Positions 2,708 to 32,254 of a stretch of DNA of 35,452 nucleotides are shown here, one piece after another. Every line of letters starts with the position of its first letter. Positions within the stretch are counted from its first letter, which is position 1. The position numbers and the translations under genes are program-made. The notes below the pieces were generated by a model. The model ran no database searches and had not been told where the DNA came from. It saw nothing but the letters and a program-made list of their open reading frames with translations. Origin of the DNA: a virus. Where the stretch lies: positions 1 through 35,452 of the IMG/VR virus record IMGVR_UViG_3300021085_000103. One strand, given 5' to 3'.

Positions 2708-3867
2708 ATTATTTTGAGCTAATTGATATTGCCAAAATTGCGCCATTGGAGAGCAATCCAAGGAAGAATTTTGATACTAGATCATTGGATGAATTATGTT
2801 CCAGTATTAAGGAGCATGGTATTATTCAGCCTCTAGTGGTTCGTCATTCAGCCCTTGTTGAAGGTAGCTATGAGTTGGTGGCGGGTGAACGGCGATGGCG
2901 TTGTGCTAGGAAATTAGAACTGGTGCAGTTGCCTTGCATGATACGCAATCTGGATGATTTAGAGGTGGCTGAGATTCAGTTGATCGAGAATATAGATCGC
3001 CATAATTTAGATCCTTTAGAGGAAAGTAGTGGTGTTTGCCGATTAGTTGAACTTGGTGTCCATCCAAGCGACTTAGCTGAAAGGCTTGGTCGGGCGGAGG
3101 ATTGGGTTCAGTTGCGGTTAGATTTACCAGAACTGCCCGATATGGCTAAGGATGCTTTGACTAATGGTGTCCTGGGTCTTGGAGGGGCTAGGCAGTTGCT
3201 GAGAGTTGATCAGGGTATGCGTGAGGAGGCAACACAGCGTTTGTTGGAAATAGAATCGCCTCTTACGGAGAGAACTGTTAGTGAGGTATTGCGCAATCGT
3301 TATCATGAGCCACGGCGTAGGCGTGAGCTTTGGAAGTCATTGAGGCAACCTATGCTTGTCAAATTCGCTGGTAATGCAACTCCTATTGATGATGTTGAGA
3401 AAAGCTATCAATATGTTCGTGCTTGGGGTGCTGGTATTGGTCATTTTTTTAATGTTGATGATGAAGTTGGTGGTCTTTCAAGGCATCCGGCGGAGTCTGT
3501 TGTTAGCTGGGGTGATTTAGCTCTTCAACATGATGTCCCGACATTATTGGTATGTGCTGGTGGTGTTATAAGTATCGATAATGTGGTCGAGGTTGTTGAT
3601 CGTAGGATTATAATAGATGCGGAAAGGGCTTTGAGGGATCAAGGTAAGTCTCATACCCTTGGCCCACGTAAAACAGTTGTTAAAGATGAGTTGAATGATG
3701 TCGGTGTTGTTGATGGTGATGCCGAGCAAGATTATGATGAGACTGCTGATCAATTTGTTGTCAGGCATGTGATGTCGGCGTTAGAGTTGAGGCATGATGA
3801 TGTAGAGCTTGCTGAACTTCTCATGCCTGTATTGGAGCTTATGGCAGAAAGGGGGGTAGGTGAATGA
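2704..3867 (+). CDS. ParB/Spo0J-like protein
   Basis: This 387-residue protein uses a GTG start with a GGAG ribosome site. The N-terminal ParB domain is clear: NPRKNFD (about 18-24), HGIIQPLVVR, the CTP/phosphate-binding GERRWR (about 61-66) and ENIDRHNLDPLEE, followed by the HTH-like LAERLGRAEDWVQLRLDLPEL. ParB proteins bind centromere sites and partition plasmids, and many phages use the fold in regulation or as a nuclease-like enzyme. No ParA is present in the window, so plasmid-type partition is not supported. The C-terminal 180 residues are unrecognised and acidic. It overlaps the methyltransferase start. Confidence 0.8.
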   Translation: MNYFELIDIAKIAPLESNPRKNFDTRSLDELCSSIKEHGIIQPLVVRHSALVEGSYELVAGERRWRCARKLELVQLPCMIRNLDDLEVAEIQLIENIDRHNLDPLEESSGVCRLVELGVHPSDLAERLGRAEDWVQLRLDLPELPDMAKDALTNGVLGLGGARQLLRVDQGMREEATQRLLEIESPLTERTVSEVLRNRYHEPRRRRELWKSLRQPMLVKFAGNATPIDDVEKSYQYVRAWGAGIGHFFNVDDEVGGLSRHPAESVVSWGDLALQHDVPTLLVCAGGVISIDNVVEVVDRRIIIDAERALRDQGKSHTLGPRKTVVKDELNDVGVVDGDAEQDYDETADQFVVRHVMSALELRHDDVELAELLMPVLELMAERGVGE

Positions 3868-4408
3868 GTTGGTATTACCTGAAGGCGAAGTCACAGAACT
3901 TGCGCTCTTCGCGGGAGCTGGAGGAGGCATCCTTGGTGGAAGTATGCTGGGGTGGCGAACCGTGGCTGCAGTCGAAATCGAAGACTATCCAAGGAGGGTT
4001 TTGCTACAACGGCAAGCTGACGGATTGCTACCTCGATTCCCTATCTGGGATGACGTTCGCACATTCAATGGATATGAATGGCGAGGGAAAGTTACAGTTG
4101 TCAGCGGAGGATTCCCATGCACAGACATCAGTGCCGCAGGAAAAGGTGCTGGAATCGAAGGAGAGCAATCTTCCTTGTGGAGAAGTATGGCGAGAATCAT
4201 ACATGAAGTTCAGCCGAAATTCTGCTACCTTGAGAACTCACCGCTCCTTGTTTCCAGAGGTCTTGGAAATGTCCTCTCAGATTTATGCCAAATGGGGTAT
4301 GATGCAAAATGGGGTATTATGGGAGCGCATCACGTTGCCGCTCCCCACAAAAGAGATCGTATCTGGATTTTGGCGTACCCCAGAGTGTGCGAAGGGGGGG
4401 ACAGTTAG
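3860..4408 (+). CDS. C5 cytosine methyltransferase, catalytic part (motifs I-VIII)
   Basis: This is a 182-residue protein from the GTG at 3860. It shows motif I LFAGAGGG (16-23), motif IV GGFPCTDIS with catalytic Cys at about 87, motif VI ENS (normally ENV) and motif VIII HKRDRIWI (163-170). It ends before the target-recognition region and motifs IX-X. Those motifs are found in the overlapping +1 frame, so an active enzyme probably needs both polypeptides, as in the two-subunit enzymes M.AquI and M.EcoHK31I. Codon choice differs from its neighbours: Gly is mostly GGA rather than GGT and third bases are rich in A and C, as expected for dual coding. It may protect phage DNA from host restriction. 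Confidence 0.85.
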   Translation: MNELVLPEGEVTELALFAGAGGGILGGSMLGWRTVAAVEIEDYPRRVLLQRQADGLLPRFPIWDDVRTFNGYEWRGKVTVVSGGFPCTDISAAGKGAGIEGEQSSLWRSMARIIHEVQPKFCYLENSPLLVSRGLGNVLSDLCQMGYDAKWGIMGAHHVAAPHKRDRIWILAYPRVCEGGDS

Positions 4409-5255
4409 TATGCAAGTCTTAGATGAAATGGCGGGTGGTAATTGGAAAAGGAAGTCTGGACATATGAGACAACTAAGGTTGCAAGATCAGGTCAGGCATG
4501 AGGGTTTATGGCCGAAGTATTGGTTGACCCCCACATGTGTTAATGTTGAGCCAACTGAGGAAAGGCGCGAAAGTCGTAGGGAGTTTAGGCATAGTATCGG
4601 TAGAAATGATTCTCCCGGTTGTCTTGCTGAACAGGTCGCTGTTGAAAGTTTTTGGCCTACTCCTACATGTCAGGAGACTGAGCATCCAAACGCCGTTATC
4701 AATAAAAATGGTCGGCGTGTATCGGTCGATGGTAATTCTGATCACAGTCTGAATTTAGCGGATTCTGTTAAGACTTGGCCTACGCCTAGGTCTAGGGATT
4801 GGAAAGGTTGCAATTCTGTTGAGGGCTTAACGCGATCTGATGGTAAGTCGCGCATGGATGCTTTGCCTAATGCTGTAGCATTTCCAGATTATGTTACTCC
4901 TAGGGTTGGCGGAGAAGAAAGTTTTGAGTCAGTGTCTAAGCGTAAAGGTGAAGCCGCGGCTGGAACTCATAATACTTTGTCTAGTGTTGAAAAAGAGCAT
5001 GGCAAGCAAGAGGGACAGCTTTCTCCTGATTGGACAGAGTGGTTAATGGGTTGGCCTGTTGGTTGGACGCGCATGGAGCCATTGGCTGATTATGATTGTC
5101 GTGATTGGCTACTAGATCCCGCTGAAGATGTTGAGGATCCTGTTGCTCGCGTGGGCAAAGGGATAGCTGATAGGAATAGTCGTTTGAAGGCTATTGGTAA
5201 TGGGCAAGTTCCTTTGTGTGCTGCTGTGGCTTTTAAAATTCTTATAAGCGAATAA
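3864..5255 (+). CDS. Overlapping-frame methyltransferase partner (TRD and motifs IX-X)
   Basis: This frame is +1 to the catalytic gene and stays open for 463 codons. The possible starts are the ATG at 3864, which shares the AAAGGGGGG ribosome site, or the ATG at 4050. From about residue 62 it resembles a known phage methyltransferase-associated family: AQTSVPQEK, then KWGMMQNGVLW (143-153), repeated W-x-TP elements (FWRTPE, WLTPT, FWPTPT, TWPTPRSRDWKG), WLMGWPVGWT and motif X-like RLKAIGNGQVP (440-450). The KWGMMQNG part lies opposite motifs VI-VIII of the other frame, so both frames carry conserved protein over the same bases. It probably supplies target recognition. Confidence 0.75.
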   Translation: MSWYYLKAKSQNLRSSRELEEASLVEVCWGGEPWLQSKSKTIQGGFCYNGKLTDCYLDSLSGMTFAHSMDMNGEGKLQLSAEDSHAQTSVPQEKVLESKESNLPCGEVWRESYMKFSRNSATLRTHRSLFPEVLEMSSQIYAKWGMMQNGVLWERITLPLPTKEIVSGFWRTPECAKGGTVSMQVLDEMAGGNWKRKSGHMRQLRLQDQVRHEGLWPKYWLTPTCVNVEPTEERRESRREFRHSIGRNDSPGCLAEQVAVESFWPTPTCQETEHPNAVINKNGRRVSVDGNSDHSLNLADSVKTWPTPRSRDWKGCNSVEGLTRSDGKSRMDALPNAVAFPDYVTPRVGGEESFESVSKRKGEAAAGTHNTLSSVEKEHGKQEGQLSPDWTEWLMGWPVGWTRMEPLADYDCRDWLLDPAEDVEDPVARVGKGIADRNSRLKAIGNGQVPLCAAVAFKILISE

Positions 5256-22088: not shown

Positions 22089-22847
22089 ATGAGTAATGTT
22101 AATTTTTATGGCTCGCGTGGGAAGCTGGTCAAAAACTGGAATATCTCAATCGAGAGGACTAAGGAAAAAATCTGGACGGTGGTTCAGACTTATCATTGCC
22201 ATAGAGATGATGCGGTAAGATTGATGCCACGGATAGGGGCTAGGCATCCAGATTTCAGTTTTGTTAAGCTTGAGGATGTTAATGTATCTGGAATGGAGGG
22301 TGATTGGGTTGATATGCAAGCCCGGTATGTAGGAATTGATCCTGATGATGAGGCTTATACAAGGGGCTTAAGGATGAATACAGGCGAGGAGCATGTGGCA
22401 ACAAATCGTTATTTTAGTGATGTTCCTGAAGATGATAGAAATGAGGCGGTCAAGCTTGCAACGCAACCTCCTAAAAACAAAGATGGTTCGGTTAAAGTAA
22501 TCGATATCACAGGTTGGGACTTGATAGGTGGTGATGGTGGAGATCGTGGCAATAAGCTAGAGTTGTATGAGATGATTCAGGGTGGTATTGAGGCTTACTT
22601 AGAGCCGCGCATTGAGTTTTTTCATCGTTATGGTTCTGAGGAAATGCCTGATGATTTAAACAATATAGGAAAGCGTGGTGATGTTCCTGAAGGATCTCCT
22701 CCAATTAATTCGGAGCGTGAATGGTTGTTTACAGGTTACAATATCACTGAAAAAGCTAAGGACGTTTTTGACATAGAAAAAACGTGGTTGTTGAGTGGTC
22801 CTGGTGGTTGGAATGAAAAGCTTTATCCCGGTGTAGTAGCACAATAG
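22089..22847 (+). CDS. Distal tail structural protein (unrecognised)
   Basis: This is a 252-residue acidic protein preceded by TTGACA and 16 nt. It follows the tape measure, where distal tail and tip proteins are found. Trp- and Tyr-rich ends suggest a beta-rich fold. No family motif is visible. It is 4 bp from the Ser-Gly-rich gene. Confidence 0.55.
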   Translation: MSNVNFYGSRGKLVKNWNISIERTKEKIWTVVQTYHCHRDDAVRLMPRIGARHPDFSFVKLEDVNVSGMEGDWVDMQARYVGIDPDDEAYTRGLRMNTGEEHVATNRYFSDVPEDDRNEAVKLATQPPKNKDGSVKVIDITGWDLIGGDGGDRGNKLELYEMIQGGIEAYLEPRIEFFHRYGSEEMPDDLNNIGKRGDVPEGSPPINSEREWLFTGYNITEKAKDVFDIEKTWLLSGPGGWNEKLYPGVVAQ

Positions 22848-22851
22848 GACT

Positions 22852-25800
22852 ATGGTAAGAAAAGTCCCAGATAAGGTTCGCGTTGGTGAGCCAATTAAGG
22901 CCGAGGATTATAACCTCATCATCGATGGCTTGCGTTATCTTTTGAGTGCTGAGGGTGTTGTCAGTGATTACGGTAATGATGATACTGTTTCTTTAAATGC
23001 CTTTCACCCTCAAATTGAGTGGGCTGGTAAGGATGAGCCTGAAAAATTAAGGGTAGTTTTTGAACAGGCGCATGTGCATTGCGTGGTTAGTAATAAGAAG
23101 TTCCCTGTTTTTCGTTGTGAAGAGGAGTTTGAGAAGGTTGTGGCAAATGGCGATTCCTTTGATCTATTGCTTTATATCGACCCCAGCACCAACGCTTGTA
23201 AGGGTGTTAAGTTTGTTAATGTGCTTGATGAGGATGCTGCTGATCCTTGTGTTGGTGGTAGTGGTGATAACCTTGATCCTGTTGATACTGATGGCGATGT
23301 TGAGAGGTTTAGAATCATTGATTTCAATTTGGTCGAGGCGGAATCACAAAGTTCTGGTGAGCAAGCTAGACCTGTGTGGGACATCAAAACATTTTATCAG
23401 TCAGATGTAATATGGAATCCCGGTCCCAAGTGTCGTTTTGGTGTTGAGTGGGATCGCCCCTCTGTTCATGGGGGTAATGTTAAGACTACTCAGGTATATG
23501 TTAATGAGGGAACAGCTAGTTTTTCTAACATTCTAGCAAAGAGGTGGAAGCCGTATTTCCCAAGCTGGCAAGGTGCGAGTTTAGAGACTAGACCAAGGAT
23601 TGCTTTAGATCTGGAAGGTTACATGCAGGGCAAATCCACTGGCACTTACTTTTTGGTTGGTGGGTTTTGCCAAAATGGCGGCGAGGTTAAGTTGTTAAGC
23701 CAAGAGGAATATGCTGAAGTATTAGGTCAATTTCCTGAAGATGCTTTCATTGTTGATATAGCAGAGGTTGTTATCGATTTGATACCTATAGATGAATTTG
23801 ATGGGTACAATGAAGCTAATCCGGCGCAACCAACACAGGGTGATGCTTGGACTATTGTCGATTTAAGACAGCTAATTTGCTCAGATGTAATAATGTCTGA
23901 AATCCCCCCTTGTGGTGGTGAAGATCCTGGTAGTAGTTCTAGTTCTAGCTCTGGCTCATCATCCGGCTCTCCATCAGGATCTCCTGATGGCTCTGGTGAT
24001 GGATCAGGATCAGGCTCAGGTGGAGGCTCAGGATCAGGTGATGGATCAGGCTCAGGCTCAGGTTCTGGCTCAGGCTCAGGTTCTGGTGATGGATCAGGTT
24101 CTGGTGATGGATCAGGTTCTGGTGATGGCTCAGGTTCTGGTGATGGATCAGGTTCTGGTGATGGATCAGGTTCTGGTGATGGATCAGGTTCTGGTGATGG
24201 ATCAGGTTCTGGTGATGGATCAGGTTCTGGTTCTGGTTCTGGTTCTGGTTCGGGATCTGGTTCAGGATCAGGTGGTGATTCTGGGTCAGGATCAGGTGAT
24301 GGGTCGGGTTCTGGGTCTGGCCCAGTTCCCCCGAATCCGAGTGTGCCTGGTGAATGTCCAGAACTTGCGTGTCTTAATATTGATGGTGAAGATATCACTA
24401 CTGAGTTTGGAACTTCATCGTTTCAGGATTCTGAAGGCGGTGGTTTCACAGAGCATATATGCAGTTATTTTGTAGGGGATTTTAGGGTTGAGCAGCGTCA
24501 GATTCTTAAAGTAGTTGATGAGAATCTCTGGGACGGTTTAAATAATATAGAGGCATTAGATTTCATCAGGGATGACGCGGGTAATGTTGTGCCTAATGCG
24601 GTAACTACAATCTCAAATGAATTTGGTGAGGTTGATGATCCTTCACATACTTTTCAAGGTCAGATAGGTGATTTCGATGAAGAGATCGAGTTAAGCGGTG
24701 TAAATATTAAGCCGTGTGGTTCGGGGTCTGGTTCTGGTTCTGGTGGTAGCTCAGGAGATACTGGTGATTCTGGTGGTGATTCTGGGGGTGGTTCAGGTGG
24801 TAGTTCGGGTGGTAGTTCGGGTGGTGGTTCAGGTGGTAGTTCAGGAGGAGGTTCTGATGGTTCAAGTGGTGGCAGTGGTGATCCTAGTGGTTCTGGTAAT
24901 GATGAGGATCCTTGGCCCGGTGATCAGTCATGTATCAAGGTTAATGGTGTGCAACAGTATGCAACACCAGTAAATGACTTGATTGATGTTTTACCTGAGA
25001 CTTACAAGTGGACTTATTCTTTTGATGATGCTTTTGTTGGGATTACACCATCAGGGACTGTAAATTTAAAAGATGAGCCGTTTGGTGAGATTCTTAAAAC
25101 TTATCCAGATTTGGATAGTTTTTTAGCGGCACTTGATGAAGGTATCGAGGACGATTATTTAAAGAATTTCGAGCGATGTGGTTCGGGTAGTTCTAATTCA
25201 GGTTCTAATGGTTCTAGTGGTGATGGCTCAGGTTACGGTGGGTCAGGTGGTTCTGATTCTGGTTATGGCTCTGGTGGGTCAGGTGGTTCTGACTCTGGTT
25301 CTGGAGGTGGTGGTTCTGGTGGTGGCTCAGGTTCTGGTGATGGCTCTGGTGGGTCAGGTGGAGGCTCAGGTTCTGGTGATGGCTCTGGTGGTGGCTCTGG
25401 CTCTGGTGGTGGCTCAGGGTCTGGTGGAGGATCTGGTTCTGATTCTGGGACGAGTAAGGACTCCGCTATTGTCCCGGTAAACTGGACTCCTACTGGTTAC
25501 GTGGCGCTATACACCTTGGAATCCCCTGATGTGCGTTTTGAGGATGTTATGGTTGTTGAGAATCATAATAACTTACGCAAATGGAGTGTTCCTATATGCG
25601 GAAGATACAAGAGTGTCTGCGAACAAGATACATTCAGTGTGGTAAGTGTGACTACTGATAAGCCTGTTTCTATTGGTGTATCGATTACGTCTGATGGGCT
25701 ATTGAATTTTGAGGGATCATTTTTGCCGTGGAACAGGCCAAAAAGGGTTGTGGTTAAAATTTCTGCTATCAGAAGAGGATTCAAGGGTGTTAGGTTTGAG

Positions 25801-25857
25801 GCAAAAACTTCACAAGAGTTTGCGGCAAACGAGAAAAGATTAGCTTTAGATATCTAA
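22852..25857 (+). CDS. Large modular tail adhesin with Ser-Gly-Asp linkers
   Basis: This 1001-residue protein is built of four globular parts joined by three low-complexity linkers. Part 1 is residues 1-360. Linker 1 (about 361-495) is mainly GSGSGDGS. Parts 2 and 3, of about 115 and 90 residues, each begin soon after a linker with Cys ([15 protein letters not shown]) and end with CGSG. Linkers 2 and 3 are GGSSGG- and GSGG-type. Part 4 (about 870-1001) is beta-rich. Ser next to Gly and Asp looks like eukaryotic proteoglycan attachment sites. A sulfotransferase and two glycosyltransferases lie just downstream, so modification of these linkers is plausible. It is probably a tail tip or fibre protein. 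Confidence 0.7.
24079..24222 (+). repeat. Eight 18-bp tandem repeats (GSGDGS-coding)
   Basis: Eight in-frame copies of GGTTCTGGTGATGGATCA, with one GGCTCA variant in the third unit, encode Gly-Ser-Gly-Asp-Gly-Ser. The near identity of the copies indicates recent expansion by slippage, so linker length is likely to vary between related phages. Confidence 0.9.
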
Positions 25858-27278
25858 TGGGTTTTTGGATAGATCCAGACGGTAATGGTGTTTTCATACC
25901 TGATTGTGATCCTTTGCCTTGGGATCCAAGTAAGAATGGCGCTGGTGAACCTTATGATCCTAACGACCCGGCTTGCGTTGGGGGTGGTGGTTCTGGATCG
26001 GTTTATGGTAGCAGTAAGAGTAGTTCTAGTAGTAGTAGTTCTGCGTCTAGCTCAAGTAGCTCAAGTAGCTCAAGTAGCTTAAGTAGCTCAAGTAGCTTAA
26101 GTAGCTCAAGTAGCTCAAGTAGCTCAAGTAGCTCAAGTAGCTCAAGTAGCTCAAGTAGCTCAAGTAGCTCAAGTAGCTCAAGTAATTCAAGTAGCTCAAG
26201 TGCTTCAGGTAGTTCAGTTTCGTCTGGTGGTGATTGTCCTAAGTATTGTGCCTTGTTTGATTATGGTGGGGTTAAATATCCAGTCACTTTTACAGGCGTA
26301 TATGTCCCCGATTTATACTTCAGTGAAGAATTAGGTATGTATGTTGGGGGATGTGTTTTTTCAAGTCCTCCCGGTGTGTCCCCTTTTTACACGATGCAGC
26401 AAGCTGGTGATGGCGTGTGGGTGTTTAGAAATTCACAAGGTGAAGTTTTCGGAACAAGTGATAGCCCGGTTGGTGAATTTAACTCTAAAGTTGAATTTTT
26501 TGATGATGAGTGTCCACCAGATTCTTCTGGCTCTCCACCGCCTCCGCCCCCACCACCATCATCCTCATCAGGATCATCATCCGGTGGTAATTCGGGTTGT
26601 ATCTGTGTGCGTTGGTATAAAACAGACGATCCAGATAATGAGGATGAACAGGGTGAAGATAGTCAGTGTAGTGACCTTGTAGATCTTTGTCTTATGATCC
26701 CTCCTGGCACTCCTTGTGATGTTAAGGGTTATAACTTTTTCATACTGGGTGGCCCACTTGATAACAGTAGCTTGGTGATCGAGACAGAGGGTCCAAATGC
26801 TCCACGAAAGTATTTTCGGTCTGGTGAAATCATTGAAGGTAGCTGGGATTATGGTCAGGAAATTGTTAGAGGTGATTACACATATACCATATCAGATGGT
26901 GAATGTGATTCTTCATCTAGCTCTAGCTCTAGCTCTGGCTCTGACCCTTGTTGCACCCCAAGTTCTGCGGATGCGTTTTTCGAGTTCTATCATTTTTATG
27001 CTAACCGTCAAGTAACAGTCAACACAAGCCTTGGTAGGAGTGGGTGTAATAGGTATGTAGCAGAAAGTCCCCTTTTTGAAAATTGTGGTGGCTATTATCA
27101 GTCAAAAGAATGGTTTATAGATATAGTTTACGATGGGACAAGCTGGAGGGCTACCCTTGGCACAGAGTGCTTTGCTGCCATCTACCAGTTTACAGGTGGA
27201 AATGATCCTTGTAATCCATCAGGTGAATATACACCTGACAGTAATTTTAGTAATGGAGAATTGACCGTAACTGTATAA
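25857..27278 (+). CDS. Poly-Ser modular tail protein
   Basis: This is a 473-residue protein whose ATG overlaps the previous TAA. A short Pro/Asp-rich N-terminus (1-40) leads into an almost pure Ser tract (about 50-125). Cys-marked modules follow: one from CPKYCALF, one from CICVRWY after a PPPPPPPP-SSSS linker, and one from DPCCTPSS after a short Ser run. The module-and-linker plan matches the preceding gene. The Ser tract could carry O-linked glycans or sulfate. A sulfotransferase begins 5 bp after the stop. The role as a tail or fibre component is inferred from position. Confidence 0.65.
   Translation: MGFWIDPDGNGVFIPDCDPLPWDPSKNGAGEPYDPNDPACVGGGGSGSVYGSSKSSSSSSSSASSSSSSSSSSSLSSSSSLSSSSSSSSSSSSSSSSSSSSSSSSSSSSNSSSSSASGSSVSSGGDCPKYCALFDYGGVKYPVTFTGVYVPDLYFSEELGMYVGGCVFSSPPGVSPFYTMQQAGDGVWVFRNSQGEVFGTSDSPVGEFNSKVEFFDDECPPDSSGSPPPPPPPPSSSSGSSSGGNSGCICVRWYKTDDPDNEDEQGEDSQCSDLVDLCLMIPPGTPCDVKGYNFFILGGPLDNSSLVIETEGPNAPRKYFRSGEIIEGSWDYGQEIVRGDYTYTISDGECDSSSSSSSSSGSDPCCTPSSADAFFEFYHFYANRQVTVNTSLGRSGCNRYVAESPLFENCGGYYQSKEWFIDIVYDGTSWRATLGTECFAAIYQFTGGNDPCNPSGEYTPDSNFSNGELTVTV
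26049..26201 (+). repeat. Seventeen 9-bp tandem repeats (Ser-Ser-Ser-coding)
   Basis: Seventeen units of AGCTCAAGT or close variants (AGCTTAAGT, AATTCAAGT) encode three Ser each, with occasional Leu or Asn. All copies keep frame, so changes in copy number would alter stalk length without breaking the gene. Confidence 0.9.
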
Positions 27279-27283
27279 AAAGC

Positions 27284-27874
27284 ATGAGTAGTATTTATAT
27301 ACATATACCCAAAACCGCTGGCACTAGCGTGGCTTTTGCTATGGGGGTTGGTAGGAATCATTACACGTATCGTGACTTGAAAGATGATGGTCGGCTTGTG
27401 GGTAATTATGTCTTTACATGTGTTAGGAATCCTTATGATCGAGCGGTTAGCTGTTACTATTACATTAAGCATATTGTTCAGCTTGCTAAGTCAGAGGGGC
27501 GCAGTTTCCCTCATTTCATAGACGATGCAGTAGATGTTAGTGATTTTTGGGCAAATTATACAAGTGGCAATCGTTTTGAAATGTTATTCAACAATGTTAT
27601 CTATTTAAAGCCTCAGTATAAGTGGCTTGAAAATGATTATTCTGGTTACGTGTCGAATAGGATCGATTTTATAATGAGGTATGAAAACTTGGCCGCTGAT
27701 TGGTCACACATACAGGATCTTTTTGGGTATCAAGACTTGGGCAAGGAGAATGAGTCGGTGCTACGCGCTGGGCAAAATTGGGGAGATGTTTTATCCCATG
27801 ATGCTAAGTTGAGAATTAGCTCATTATATGCGCAGGATTTTGCAAGGTTCGGCTATTCTGATGCTGAGGTTTGA
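27284..27874 (+). CDS. Sulfotransferase (PAPS-dependent, Sulfotransfer_2-like)
   Basis: This is a 196-residue protein with the two PAPS-binding signatures of carbohydrate sulfotransferases: the 5'-phosphosulfate loop HIPKTAGTS (7-15) and the 3'-phosphate site VRNPYDRAVS (47-56). His26 in NHYTYRD is in the place of the catalytic base of heparan-type 2-O enzymes. The C-terminal RYENLAADW and LYAQDFARFGY are also typical. It should transfer sulfate from PAPS to a sugar or other hydroxyl in the cytoplasm. It lies directly after the poly-Ser tail gene and before a glycosyltransferase. Few phages are known to carry such a gene. Confidence 0.85.
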   Translation: MSSIYIHIPKTAGTSVAFAMGVGRNHYTYRDLKDDGRLVGNYVFTCVRNPYDRAVSCYYYIKHIVQLAKSEGRSFPHFIDDAVDVSDFWANYTSGNRFEMLFNNVIYLKPQYKWLENDYSGYVSNRIDFIMRYENLAADWSHIQDLFGYQDLGKENESVLRAGQNWGDVLSHDAKLRISSLYAQDFARFGYSDAEV

Positions 27875-27891
27875 CAATCGGTAACTGGTGG

Positions 27892-28698
27892 ATGAGTAAT
27901 GAAAATAGCGTAGTTGGGTCAGTGAATAGGGCTGATGGAAGTTTGGATAGGCAAAGCCCTGGTGCTGGTGTTGCTTCGGTAGACCAAGGACAAGCAAAGA
28001 GTAAGGTTAATTTGTATGATTACTTTTCTGATGTTCAGGTTGTGCATCTTGAAAAGTTTCCGCAGAGATGGCTCAGGTTTGAGGAGAGGGCAAAGGCTGT
28101 TGGTGTTTCTGGTTATAAGAAGTTTAAGGCGGTGCTTGGTGATGCAGCTAATCCTCCGATTTGGTGGAGGGCTGGTAATGGCGCATGGGGATGTATGATG
28201 AGTCATTTACATATCGTTCAGAATTATTTAACTCGCGGTGATGATGGTCATCTTTTGGTTTTTGAAGATGATGCTCTTTTTTCTGAGGACTTTGCTCAAC
28301 GATTGCCTGAGATCATGGAAGAGGTTGGGGATGATTGGGATATGCTTTACTTTGGAGGTCAGCATTTACACACGCACAGGCACAGGCCGTGGAAGTGCAA
28401 AGATAATAAGAATGTAATTAACGCTTATAACGTAAATCGGACGCATGCTTTTGCTGTAAATAAAAGATTCGCTGTGAAGTATCAGCAACATATTATTCAT
28501 GCCCCGGACTATATTGATTATAATTGGGTAGCGCATGTTGATCATCAGTTAGGAGTTCTGCATGAAAAGGGGCAGTATAAGATTTACGCTGTGACTCCTT
28601 GGATCAATGGTCAAGCCGCTGGTAAAAGTTGGACTTGTGGTCGTGAAACAAATGATCATTGGTGGCAGATCGAGCCAAAGCAGATTGTTCACAAGTGA
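27892..28698 (+). CDS. GT25-type glycosyltransferase
   Basis: This is a 268-residue protein from the ATG at 27892, preceded by TTGACA and 15 nt. Residues 1-45 are a polar, disordered leader. The GT25 (LPS glycosyltransferase) domain follows: VVHLEKFPQRWLRFEERA, GAWGCMMSHLHIVQNYL and the metal-binding FEDDA at 124-128, then WDMLYFGGQH. GT25 enzymes add galactose or glucose in LPS, and related domains modify collagen hydroxylysine. It stands between the sulfotransferase and a second glycosyltransferase. Confidence 0.8.
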   Translation: MSNENSVVGSVNRADGSLDRQSPGAGVASVDQGQAKSKVNLYDYFSDVQVVHLEKFPQRWLRFEERAKAVGVSGYKKFKAVLGDAANPPIWWRAGNGAWGCMMSHLHIVQNYLTRGDDGHLLVFEDDALFSEDFAQRLPEIMEEVGDDWDMLYFGGQHLHTHRHRPWKCKDNKNVINAYNVNRTHAFAVNKRFAVKYQQHIIHAPDYIDYNWVAHVDHQLGVLHEKGQYKIYAVTPWINGQAAGKSWTCGRETNDHWWQIEPKQIVHK

Positions 28699-28789
28699 AG
28701 TCCTAAAAAGTAAACGCAGTTTGCGTTATTAATTATGGCAAAAAATATACATTAAACTTGTGTAGGAGTTGACATACGTCAGACAAGCT
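28699..28789 (+). promoter_or_regulatory. Intergenic leader with small hairpin
   Basis: This 91-bp gap holds a 6-bp hairpin (AACGCA-GTT-TGCGTT, 28713-28727) and ends with TTGACA 15 nt before the next ATG. There is no T-run, so it is not a clear terminator. Confidence 0.35.
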
Positions 28790-29404
28790 ATGAGCAAGAT
28801 ATTGCATCAAGTCTGGATTCAAGGGGAGAGTGAACTACCACAAGAGTATATTAAATCTAGGTCTAAGTGGCGTGAAGACCTCCCAGATGATTGGGAGATG
28901 ATGCTTTGGGATAATAACATGGCGCGTGAGAAGTGGCATGACTATAAGGAGGTCGAAGCCTCTTGCAGCTCGCACGCTATGCGAGGAGACTTAATTTTGG
29001 CTCGCGCTCTTCGTGATTACGGCGGATTAGCCTGCGGTGCAGATGTTATCCCTAACAATATACCTGATCTGCTGAATTTTGTATCCAGCACTGATACTAT
29101 GATTGTGACCAATCCAAAGGGTAAGGCTTGCTCAAATGGTATTACATGGTTTCGTGATGTTGAGCATGAGTTTTGTTCGTGTGTTTGTAGATATCAATTA
29201 CTTTACCGTGACAAGCTCCCAACTGGCAATGTTTGGCATCTAACGGGTCCTGGTGCGTGGTGGGGCGCACTCGCAGTTGGACAATGGAACTTGACTATGG
29301 TTACAGATCGAAAAGCCTTTACTCACTTATGTAGAGATATAGGAAAAGAGGCTTCAAATCCCGAAGGATGGGTAAATCCAGTCTACGCGGGTAGTTGGCA
29401 TTAG
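28790..29404 (+). CDS. GT32-like glycosyltransferase with altered DxD
   Basis: This is a 204-residue protein from the ATG at 28790. The start KILHQVWIQGE and the region RGDLILARALRDYGGLACGADV (helix then metal site, ending at residue 86) match capsular or mannosyl GT32 enzymes. In those the site is usually YGGIYLDTDV. Here the first Asp of DxD is Gly and only Asp85 remains, so metal binding may be changed or activity lost. Cys is unusually common. It probably acts on a sugar nucleotide together with the neighbouring enzymes. Confidence 0.7.
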   Translation: MSKILHQVWIQGESELPQEYIKSRSKWREDLPDDWEMMLWDNNMAREKWHDYKEVEASCSSHAMRGDLILARALRDYGGLACGADVIPNNIPDLLNFVSSTDTMIVTNPKGKACSNGITWFRDVEHEFCSCVCRYQLLYRDKLPTGNVWHLTGPGAWWGALAVGQWNLTMVTDRKAFTHLCRDIGKEASNPEGWVNPVYAGSWH

Positions 29405-29405
29405 T

Positions 29406-29927
29406 ATGAGTAGTATAGATAAATACCAAGAACGGTATCTTGCTCATCAAGCAAGGAAGAAGGATGTTCTTATCGAGATAGTCAGGCAAAGGCATAGCAA
29501 TAGGATGTTTGCACCAGAGCCTGTGAGTGATAAAGATATTAATGAGTTATTGATGGTGTGTGATTTTTGTCCATCATCGTGTGATAGGTTGGGTATTGAT
29601 AAGGTCGTGGTAAATGGGAGGGATGATAAGAATCTCTTAGGTGGTTTGCTTGTCGGTGGTGTTGGTTGGATTCACAGGTCTTCACACATCATACTTTTAT
29701 TTGCAGATAGAGTTGCTTACAAGGCGGGTGATGAAGTCGGGTTCATGCCTTACTTAGATGCTGGGGTGGTAATACAGCAACTTTACCTAACGGCTACCAG
29801 CATGGGTCTTCATTGTGCTTATGCGAACCCCAACATTAGGGAGAGGCACAGGGTATTTATGGAGGATCTTTATGGTGATCGTATATTTTGCGGTGCTTTT
29901 GCAGTTGGGCATCCTTTTGAATCATGA
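29406..29927 (+). CDS. Nitroreductase-family flavoprotein
   Basis: This is a 173-residue protein with nitroreductase-fold signatures: the FMN-phosphate-binding RQRHSNRMFAPEPVSD (about 26-41) and the helix DAGVVIQQLYLTATSMGLHC, followed by an Asn-Pro-Asn loop. Family members use FMN and NAD(P)H to reduce nitro groups or quinones, or to oxidise peptide heterocycles. The protein is at the short end for the family. Its role inside a glycosylation and tail-fibre block is unclear. It starts 1 bp after the GT32-like gene. Confidence 0.75.
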   Translation: MSSIDKYQERYLAHQARKKDVLIEIVRQRHSNRMFAPEPVSDKDINELLMVCDFCPSSCDRLGIDKVVVNGRDDKNLLGGLLVGGVGWIHRSSHIILLFADRVAYKAGDEVGFMPYLDAGVVIQQLYLTATSMGLHCAYANPNIRERHRVFMEDLYGDRIFCGAFAVGHPFES

Positions 29928-29954
29928 CTGCGATTGACGCGATGATATCAAGTT

Positions 29955-31727
29955 ATGCGCTTCTATTACGATCTTGATCTGGGTCAGTTAGTTCAGACCC
30001 CCGGCTACCCCAATCCACTAAATATCGTTGATTTCAAAAGGGGTGATGCTGCGGAAATTAGGCTTGGATTTTATGAGGGTGGTCGGCAAGTTTCGATAGG
30101 ATCTTCGGCTGTTTTAGAGTTCGCTTTAAAACCAGTTGGCAAATATGATCTCGACCCTGTTGTTTCGAGTGATGATTGGACTTACGGCGGTGATGAGACT
30201 CCTGAGTATATCTGTAGTCCATCATTTAACACCATAGCTCTCAACGCACTATTTAATCATGCTGATGCTGATTACGAGAATGATATCAGTAGTGTTGATC
30301 TCATGTTTGAAATTACGTGGAGCGTTGATCTTGGTATTTCATGGGTATCTACAGATACAATTACGGCGCGTGTCTATAATGATGTGATCAAGGGTATTGA
30401 GGGTGTTCCTTTACAGGGTCCACCAGCTTACCCTACCTCTGCTGTAATACATAATTTGACAGATAACATAACCGTCACTGAGCCAATAAATCTGGATACA
30501 TTAGAAGGTCTGCAAGGCCCAGCGGGTGCAGATGGAGCAACAGGCCCAGCGGGTGCAGATGGAGCGACAGGCCCAGCGGGTGCAGATGGAGCGACAGGCC
30601 CAGCGGGTGCAGATGGAGCAACAGGCCCGGCTGGTGCTGATGGTGCTGATGGTACTGACTCAACTGTGCCTGGTCCACAAGGCCCAGCGGGTGCTGATGG
30701 TGCAGACAACGCAACTCTCGATTCTGTCACCAGCAACGGAGCAACTACAACCAATGATATTACTGTAGGAAATCGCATCATAACTGGCAACAATGTAGCC
30801 AGTGGTGCAACAGCTACAGCCATAGGGGGGCAAAACAATACAGCTAGTGGTCAAAGTGCTGAGGTTCTAGGAGGTGATGGTTCGACTGCTAGTGGTCAAG
30901 GCTCAAGTGTGATTGGTGGTAGTAATCACCAAAATGCAGCAAACTGGACAGCTACAGTTGGAGGTTTGAATCAAACAGTTGCAAGCGGAGCAGCTAGGGG
31001 TGCTATTTTGGCGGGTTTTGGTCACAATTTGAATCACTCTGATTCTGTAATTATTGCTGGAAACACCATAACGTCAGACGCACCCAATACAGTTTTTGTT
31101 CCGAACCTAAATGTTAAAGACGGATTTAAGATGCCAACAGGCGCAAGCGATGGTGAAGTTCTAACCACTGACGCGAATGGCGTAGGCACATGGCAACCCG
31201 CTTCGGGTGGTGGTGGCGGTGGCTCAAGCGTTGTGGCGAGTTATTACGATGATGCTCTTGTTCTCGCTAAAACAACTGGTGCAAACGAAATCTACGACAT
31301 CACAGGTCTATCCTATGCGATGACTGCGGGCAAGATGTATCATGTAAAATGCTACTACTGGCACTCCAGTGGCGGTTCTACTCTTTCGGGAGGTTCTAAT
31401 AGCTGGCCAGCTAGTGCATCTTACTGCGATCTTGGTTTTATTCCTTGGGGTAATACTGATGGGGTGAGGCAGGGGTTTCAGGGCTGGTGGGGTGACGATA
31501 ACGCAATCACACCAAGCAATACTTTTTCATACGCTCCGTGGGCTTATAATGCGACAAAACACCAATGCGATTTGGGTTATTATGGCTATAATGGATGGGC
31601 AAGGCTTGAGGGTATCTTCACTGCTCCTACAAGCTCAACCTTTACCCCTACCATCACCATTTATGGGGATCATAATGCAGGATCACTTACGGTTGCATTT
31701 CAAGGTGTCATCCATGAAATCGGATAA
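29955..31727 (+). CDS. Collagen-like tail fibre with YadA-head-like repeats
   Basis: This is a 590-residue protein preceded by TTGACG and 15 nt. Residues 1-185 form a beta-rich N-terminal domain suited to tail attachment. Residues about 188-255 are Gly-X-Y repeats (GPAGADGAT units), so this part should be a collagen-like triple helix. Residues about 270-350 hold YadA-head-like repeats ([26 protein letters not shown]). A Gly-rich linker then leads to a Trp/Tyr-rich C-terminal domain (about 425-590), the likely receptor-binding part. A trimeric fibre is inferred. Confidence 0.85.
30516..30623 (+). repeat. Four 27-bp repeats coding for collagen-like GPAGADGAT
   Basis: Four nearly identical 27-bp units each encode three Gly-X-Y triplets, followed by diverged copies to about 30708. 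The low divergence suggests recent expansion. Confidence 0.9.
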
Positions 31728-32254
31728 TGAAAACTTACGTCATTAGCTTAAAGGAAAGATCGGACAGGCGGGAGAAGTTCTCCCTGCCTTTTGATTATGA
31801 GTTTCTTTTGCAAGACAGGGTGACGGGAGTTCATGGTGTTCGTTGGTGTTTGGCAAACCTTGGTTGTATGCTTGGTCATAGGCAAGCAATCCAACTAGCA
31901 AAAGAACAAGGGCTGGACGAGGTTCTTGTTCTGGAGGATGACGCTAAATTAGAGAATGGGATTCCAAATAAAATGCCCCATGCTGTCACTTTTCTAGGTG
32001 GTGATAAACATCATGGTTATATCGTCGGTAGCCATGCTGTGTATTACCATTCATCCTCATTTGACCCTCTACTTGAGTCATTACCAACACTTGAGCAGTT
32101 ACAAGATTCAAAGCATCCACCGATGCTTGACCCCTACGACTTATGGCTAAGTCGGCAAGGAGTGGGGTATGCAAATTCATTCATTTCTTTTGATGAAGAA
32201 AACGGAGACATCCCCCACGGAGGTAAAATCAAACAAGAACTATTAACAGCATAA
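31727..32254 (+). CDS. Second GT25-like glycosyltransferase
   Basis: This is a 175-residue protein whose ATG overlaps the fibre gene's stop. It starts KTYVISLKERSDRREKF, has GCMLGHRQAIQLAKEQG and the metal site LEDDA (E70-D71-D72), and ends with a DLWLSRQG segment, all typical of GT25. It is much shorter than the first GT25 protein and resembles compact phage forms. Its coupling to the fibre gene suggests that the fibre, or a glycan displayed on it, is the acceptor. Confidence 0.7.
   Translation: MKTYVISLKERSDRREKFSLPFDYEFLLQDRVTGVHGVRWCLANLGCMLGHRQAIQLAKEQGLDEVLVLEDDAKLENGIPNKMPHAVTFLGGDKHHGYIVGSHAVYYHSSSFDPLLESLPTLEQLQDSKHPPMLDPYDLWLSRQGVGYANSFISFDEENGDIPHGGKIKQELLTA

Follow-up and report, generated by a model that had tools for sequence, protein, structure and literature searches.

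Glycosyltransferase and sulfotransferase genes adjoin serine-rich tail protein genes in an environmental phage: a candidate system for decoration of tail linkers

The window analysed here is the whole 35,452-nucleotide stretch of the IMG/VR virus record IMGVR_UViG_3300021085_000103 (positions 1 to 35,452), and the system in question is a cassette of its tail region, in which genes for glycosyltransferases and a sulfotransferase stand next to genes for two serine-rich (Ser-rich) tail proteins. The 35.5-kb record also carries genes for a lambda-type terminase, a portal, a Clp-type head protease, a tape measure, an endolysin and an integrase. Among cultured phages, the nearest portal is that of the Akkermansia phage Moulinsart, which also gives the top-scoring terminase match, and the portal is 41% identical to that of L026, a prophage in a metagenome-assembled genome of the Verrucomicrobiales; in view of these portal and terminase relationships, the host is probably a Verrucomicrobiota bacterium. 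All cassette genes, from p3 to GT25b, are on the + strand between 22852 and 32254. An initial annotation, made from the letters of the window, had described two Ser-rich tail proteins followed by a sulfotransferase, a GT25 enzyme, a GT32-like enzyme, a nitroreductase, a collagen-like fibre and a second GT25, and all of these were recovered in that order, the GT32 being divergent. The tight spacing that it reported was likewise found at nearly every junction, with overlaps of 1-4 bases or gaps of 1-27 bases, the exception being the ~70 bases between GT25a and the GT32-like gene. The features are the following:

22089..22847, + strand: p2, conserved tail protein, used as anchor for finding homologous tail modules; 39% identical to a Verrucomicrobiales prophage protein (L026)
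22852..25857, + strand: p3, tail protein with a family-wide N-domain, Ser-Gly-Asp linkers, small domains between them and a C-terminal domain; 1001 aa, 153 Ser
25456..25854, + strand: C-terminal domain of p3 (KDSAIVP...), its last 133 residues; common to other GT25a-bearing phages and prophages
25857..27278, + strand: p4, second Ser-rich protein; 473 aa with 113 Ser, the Ser content reaching 95% within 40 aa
27284..27874, + strand: sulfotransferase; PF03567 at 1.3e-8 (35.8 bits against a cut-off of 22), PHROG 3347 at 1.2e-15
27871..28698, + strand: GT25a, glycosyltransferase of a Ser-rich-linked subfamily, with an EDD motif; PF01755 above the curated cut-off
28769..29404, + strand: GT32-like enzyme with Gly for the first Asp of DXD (GGLACGADVIPN); sub-threshold TcdA_TcdB match only, related to clear GT32 proteins
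29406..29927, + strand: short flavin mononucleotide (FMN) protein of the nitroreductase family; PF00881 at 1.2e-12
29955..31727, + strand: collagen-like tail fibre with a conserved N-domain, GXY repeats and a C-terminal domain; PF01391 at 1.6e-7
31727..32254, + strand: GT25b, short GT25-like protein; PF01755 at 7.2e-8, 175 aa

The linkers of p3 occupy residues ~348-490, 644-682 and 774-817, with small domains between them, and p4 combines a poly-Ser linker (residues ~39-132) with two short ones. In relatives of this tail module, the tape measure is followed by p2, the p3 N-domain and the fibre. The p2 family is present in 60 of 387 Verrucomicrobiales genomes, and a scan with the fibre N-domain retrieved 67 viral loci. 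L026 possesses p2, a 422-aa p3 without linker or Ser-rich part (~28% identical to the N-part of the window p3) and the fibre directly after it. With the exception of L110, the p2-to-fibre stretch of the related tail loci contains neither a strongly Ser-rich run nor a homologue of the window enzymes. A Ser-rich linker was thereby found in none of the 77 related tail modules without enzymes (one antisense false positive), versus the two out of two with GT25a, namely the window and L110, which suggests that enzymes and linkers are gained or lost together. The Ser-rich signal is also above chance: a frame-agnostic rule for Ser-rich proteins, applied to 20 control GT25 loci, retrieved none, and among the 77 tail loci it retrieved a single one, corresponding to the antisense reading. 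In L110, a p3 with an SDGDSDGG/poly-Ser linker is followed by a 608-aa GT25a-GT32 fusion, whose GT32 domain has an intact DXD, and then by a methyltransferase; this fusion of the two transferases speaks in favour of linker decoration. Another genome of the Verrucomicrobiota also encodes, at the end of a contig, a p3-type protein whose residues are 17% Ser and 17% Gly (L049, G085 C15 1-6000).

A query blind to both Ser and GT25 is provided by the p3 C-terminal domain alone. This domain recurs beside GT25a in three prophages, and its scan yielded 25 viral loci, including about 20 metagenomic phages with a shared order. In nearly all of these loci with enough flank, a C-domain protein with a Ser linker is followed by a second Ser-rich protein, GT25a and a variable slot. 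The slot is occupied by a GT32, a GT8-like enzyme, a further GT25, an enzyme of 246 aa bearing a DXD-like motif, or a fusion of glycosyltransferase and methyltransferase; a UDP-galactopyranose mutase is also present in L252. Among the divergent loci, L273 has no GT25 and carries a sulfotransferase-containing protein together with other enzymes, while neither a Ser-rich linker nor GT25a was found in L269, where a possible sulfotransferase-like gene follows, or in L274. As for the domain itself, fold look-up indicates a weak likeness to H-type-lectin-like fibre tips, with Z values up to 6.6 (below 8) that are not decisive. Viral-contig scans with p2 or the sulfotransferase as single queries returned no relatives, an early one with GT25a gave only distant T4-like glycosyltransferase clusters, and no close homologue of GT25a, of the p3 C-domain or of the nitroreductase was present in cultured phage records.

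The same association was observed in cellular genomes. A profile built from the window, L110 and relatives (A8) separates a high-scoring GT25a subfamily from the other GT25s of Verrucomicrobiota: the window scores 305 bits, being itself inside the profile, cellular members 167-324, and phylum controls below 93 over the matched domain. Under a uniform rule, a Ser-rich protein lies within ~10 kb in 7 of the 14 GT25a-subfamily loci and in none of the 20 other GT25 loci, and in most of the seven it is only 22-541 bases away. The count rises to 10/14 with two more loci after extension over the RHS gene and with L217, whose Ser run is shorter and below the rule; with the frame-agnostic rule, it is 7/14 (9/14 extended) versus 0/20. 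The corresponding Fisher P values, 6e-4 for 7/14 and 8e-6 for 10/14 against 0/20, overstate the independence of the rows, since many marine loci are close kin. Most of the cellular partners are large proteins of the RHS/YD-repeat type, their linkers being poly-Ser or Ser-Gly-Asp. In L210, a poly-Ser RHS protein stands beside a cassette composed of a PF11397 (GT60-type) enzyme, a GT32, a sulfotransferase, GT25a, a second sulfotransferase and an adenosine 5'-phosphosulfate (APS) kinase, i.e. the trio of the phage window plus the step making the sulfate donor, and the related L209 and L221 share parts of it. As a separate observation, a GT60-type/GT32/two sulfotransferases/GT25a cassette (with the APS kinase in L210) near an RHS protein with a poly-Ser and PT-repeat N-terminus was noted for L209, L210, L221, L243 and L244. 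Besides, small proteins (130-135 aa) with ~60 nearly consecutive Ser that start MPLPASIACCCD are encoded at ~9098-9529 in L126, L127 and L129, upstream of GT25a by two genes.

With regard to the linkers themselves, the initial annotation had emphasised Ser-Gly next to acidic residues. In proteoglycans, Ser-Gly repeats near acidic residues carry sulfated glycans, and the window recalls this arrangement by its Ser-Gly repeats near acidic residues and its sulfotransferase; however, the pattern is not conserved in relatives, and the enzymes belong to other families. The linkers of relatives are poly-S, SD, SGD, ST or SA, with Thr scarce in most and serine alone constant, which favours a Ser acceptor and speaks against any particular Ser-Gly-acid signal; such a signal was consequently dropped as a requirement. 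One element does persist amid the otherwise hypervariable Ser linkers: GS[SA]KSxSS, with a usually unique Lys, recurs in L249-L273, and p4 has GSSKSSSS at residues 51-58 (window 26007-26030, context YGSSKSSSS). In the second Ser-rich proteins, the Lys of the linker is usually single and sits inside GSxK followed by further Ser; in a set of 19 proteins, mostly close relatives, 18 match GSxK[SI]x[SL]S, L218 being a GSxKI variant, and the remaining one reads GSSKSSGS. This motif, a new observation, could serve for docking or as a starting point. One could go further and propose that its Lys is the acceptor, or the motif the dock of the enzyme, with the Ser runs as mere spacers, in line with the recurrence of GSxKS in 19 phages whose linkers vary elsewhere and with the modification of hydroxylysine by COLGALT1. 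We regard this as very unlikely, given that the Ser-rich proteins beside GT25a in L110, L210, L213 and L214/L248 have linkers devoid of Lys and that no lysyl hydroxylase was identified.

GT25a belongs to GT25 (PF01755), and its EDD motif is invariant in 16 sequences. Its closest solved structures are, both by profile and by fold, human COLGALT1 and Mimivirus R655, with conservation of the EDD region. COLGALT1 galactosylates collagen hydroxylysine, while R655 is a putative transferase. Since the profile matches to COLGALT1 (4e-22) and R655 (7e-15) come well ahead of those to bacterial GT25 enzymes (6e-6), GT25a appears closer to protein glycosylation than to lipopolysaccharide (LPS) synthesis, its acceptor not being fixed by similarity; the AlphaFold model, at a mean pLDDT of 77, is in accord with this likeness (Foldseek, 1e-13). 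Unlike the situation of COLGALT1, GT25a has Ser-rich neighbours, and Lys is absent from the GXY repeats. The initial annotation had proposed the phage's own linkers or its fibre as acceptors, and the linkers remain the best candidates, as enzymes and linkers co-vary across unrelated phages and hosts. The fibre is an unlikely one and was set aside, because its 17 GXY repeats contain no Lys, the residue that a collagen hydroxylysine galactosyltransferase would need in Gly-X-Y, and because GT25a does not track GXY proteins (2/44 GT25a loci versus 2/70 tail modules without GT25a). This also bears on the wider proposal that the target lies elsewhere in the virion, e.g. in the capsid, the tail tube or the fibre, the last of which the COLGALT1 similarity hints at through collagen. 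In L130-L136, GT25a of the subfamily does lie among head and connector genes with no Ser-rich protein, and mycobacteriophages are known to have glycosylated capsids and tail tubes (Freeman et al. 2023, as cited in PMC12619734). Nevertheless, Ser-rich genes directly adjoin GT25a in most other phage lineages and, together with the data on GXY repeats, this makes such a target quite improbable.

The other enzymes are in part divergent. The sulfotransferase has the 5'-phosphosulfate-binding loop IPKTAGTS, expected to bind 3'-phosphoadenosine-5'-phosphosulfate (PAPS), and the motif RNPYDRAVSCY; it belongs to PF03567 and is homologous to the sulfotransferases of the cellular cassettes. The GT32-like enzyme is present as first annotated, with the correction that it reads GxD in place of DXD and gives no match to PF04488 (Gly_transf_sug). 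Decay of the gene was considered and rejected: its closest relative, a phage homologue in L254 (3.7e-87), has the same change, which therefore represents a conserved variant. GT25b does match PF01755, its short length of 175 aa having escaped the first description, and is not close to the GT25a subfamily.

The initial annotation had also named lysogenic conversion as an alternative, the enzymes changing the LPS or capsule of the host during lysogeny or infection and the Ser-rich neighbours being incidental. The phage is temperate, as indicated by its integrase, the GT25 and sulfotransferase families also act on cell-surface glycans, and polysaccharide-type genes, e.g. a pyruvyltransferase-like one, are found near some of the cellular relatives. 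Such a role is unlikely, however: the genes are embedded in the late tail operon, most neighbours overlapping or being closely spaced, and a conversion function does not predict that GT25a should track Ser-rich proteins across unrelated phages and host RHS genes. Besides, no membrane or strongly hydrophobic segment was detected in the cassette enzymes (maximal 19-residue hydropathy of 1.33), so that the membrane flippase and membrane-bound transferase of a gtr-type conversion cluster have no counterpart among them.

Rather likely, in our judgement from the gene data, the cassette decorates the phage's own Ser-rich linkers. The idea that phage enzymes act on their own Ser-rich proteins withstood a test able to refute it and is partly supported, with support from hosts and unrelated phages. 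In such a system, for which we infer the serine acceptor, the enzyme order, the sulfate cap and the benefit alike, p3 and p4 would be tail or adhesion proteins made of folded domains joined by long Ser-rich linkers. GT25a, cytosolic and of EDD type, would most likely be the core enzyme and, before assembly, place the first sugar on serines in the linkers of freshly synthesised p3 and p4; chain extension would fall to the GT32-like enzyme, perhaps together with GT25b, and the sulfotransferase would cap it with sulfate from host PAPS, thereby giving a stiff, hydrophilic, protease-resistant and negatively charged stalk. Sulfation in the window, suggested by one gene and its cellular company, is plausible because related sulfotransferases, in one locus with an APS kinase, sit in similar host cassettes, and it would be optional because most phage relatives have other caps. 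More broadly, and somewhat short of probable, a modular Ser-linker glycosylation could be common to the RHS proteins of Verrucomicrobiota and to several unrelated lineages of phages, with a GT25 core near collagen galactosyltransferase and exchangeable GT32, GT8-like, UDP-galactopyranose mutase, methyltransferase and sulfotransferase modules, producing mucin-like, sometimes sulfated tail stalks.

Several observations weigh against linker decoration. The phages L130-L136, which form a planctomycete-like sister clade, L133 and the cellular loci L216, L219, L220 and L222 contain GT25a without a Ser-rich neighbour within the sequence available for them, and the acceptor therefore need not be Ser-rich; the initial annotation had named enzymes occurring without Ser-rich proteins as refuting its reading, and this applies to that part of the subfamily. 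Adjacency is indirect evidence, and many of the marine loci are closely related. Of the co-occurrence in phages that the annotation proposed to search for, the association of GT25a with Ser-rich proteins is recurrent, but the sulfotransferase is rare among phage relatives and clear only in L273. Finally, COLGALT1, the nearest match of GT25a, works on hydroxylysine instead of serine, and the GT32-like enzyme of the window lacks the first Asp of DXD.

Among known systems, the serine-rich repeat protein (SRRP) clusters of Gram-positive bacteria, e.g. that of Fap1, place dedicated glycosyltransferase genes by a Ser-rich surface protein that is O-glycosylated stepwise, with variable outer sugars (PMC5207161). 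The phage cassette is alike by the adjacency, though not by demonstrated activity, of a Ser-rich candidate acceptor and dedicated glycosyltransferases. It differs in that no GtfA/GtfB priming pair was recognised among its enzymes (PF01755, PF03567, GT32-like and PF00881), the core being a GT25, and in its occurrence in phage tails and by RHS proteins, with sulfotransferases and methyltransferases. In mycobacteriophages, according to the mentions of Freeman et al. (2023) in PMC12619734 and PMC13313380, phage-encoded glycosyltransferases modify the C-termini of the phage's own capsid and tail-tube proteins. The cassette would similarly act on own structural proteins, as deduced here from genes alone, whereas its candidate targets are Ser-rich linkers of tail adhesion proteins, in another host phylum and with a sulfotransferase. 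By analogy, it may resemble SRRP glycosylation with different enzymes and belong with phage self-glycosylation. No case of phage virions with sulfated glycans turned up in the literature searched.

If confirmed, linker decoration would give a reason for the extreme Ser-rich linkers seen in many phages from the environment and in surface proteins of Verrucomicrobiota, and a structural role for phage sulfotransferase and GT25 genes, usually classed as auxiliary metabolic or host-takeover genes. It would represent a little-known kind of protein modification, in which a virus sugar-coats its own tail linkers, and would make available small, soluble enzymes able to O-glycosylate plain repeats of Ser; the pairs of linker and enzyme are short enough for work in E. 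coli.

Regarding the remaining genes, no homologue of the nitroreductase was found in the related cassettes, loci and phage records compared. Elsewhere in the window, a DNA cytosine methylase-like reading (3860-5255) extends over two overlapping open reading frames in different frames, corresponding either to two genes or to a frameshift.
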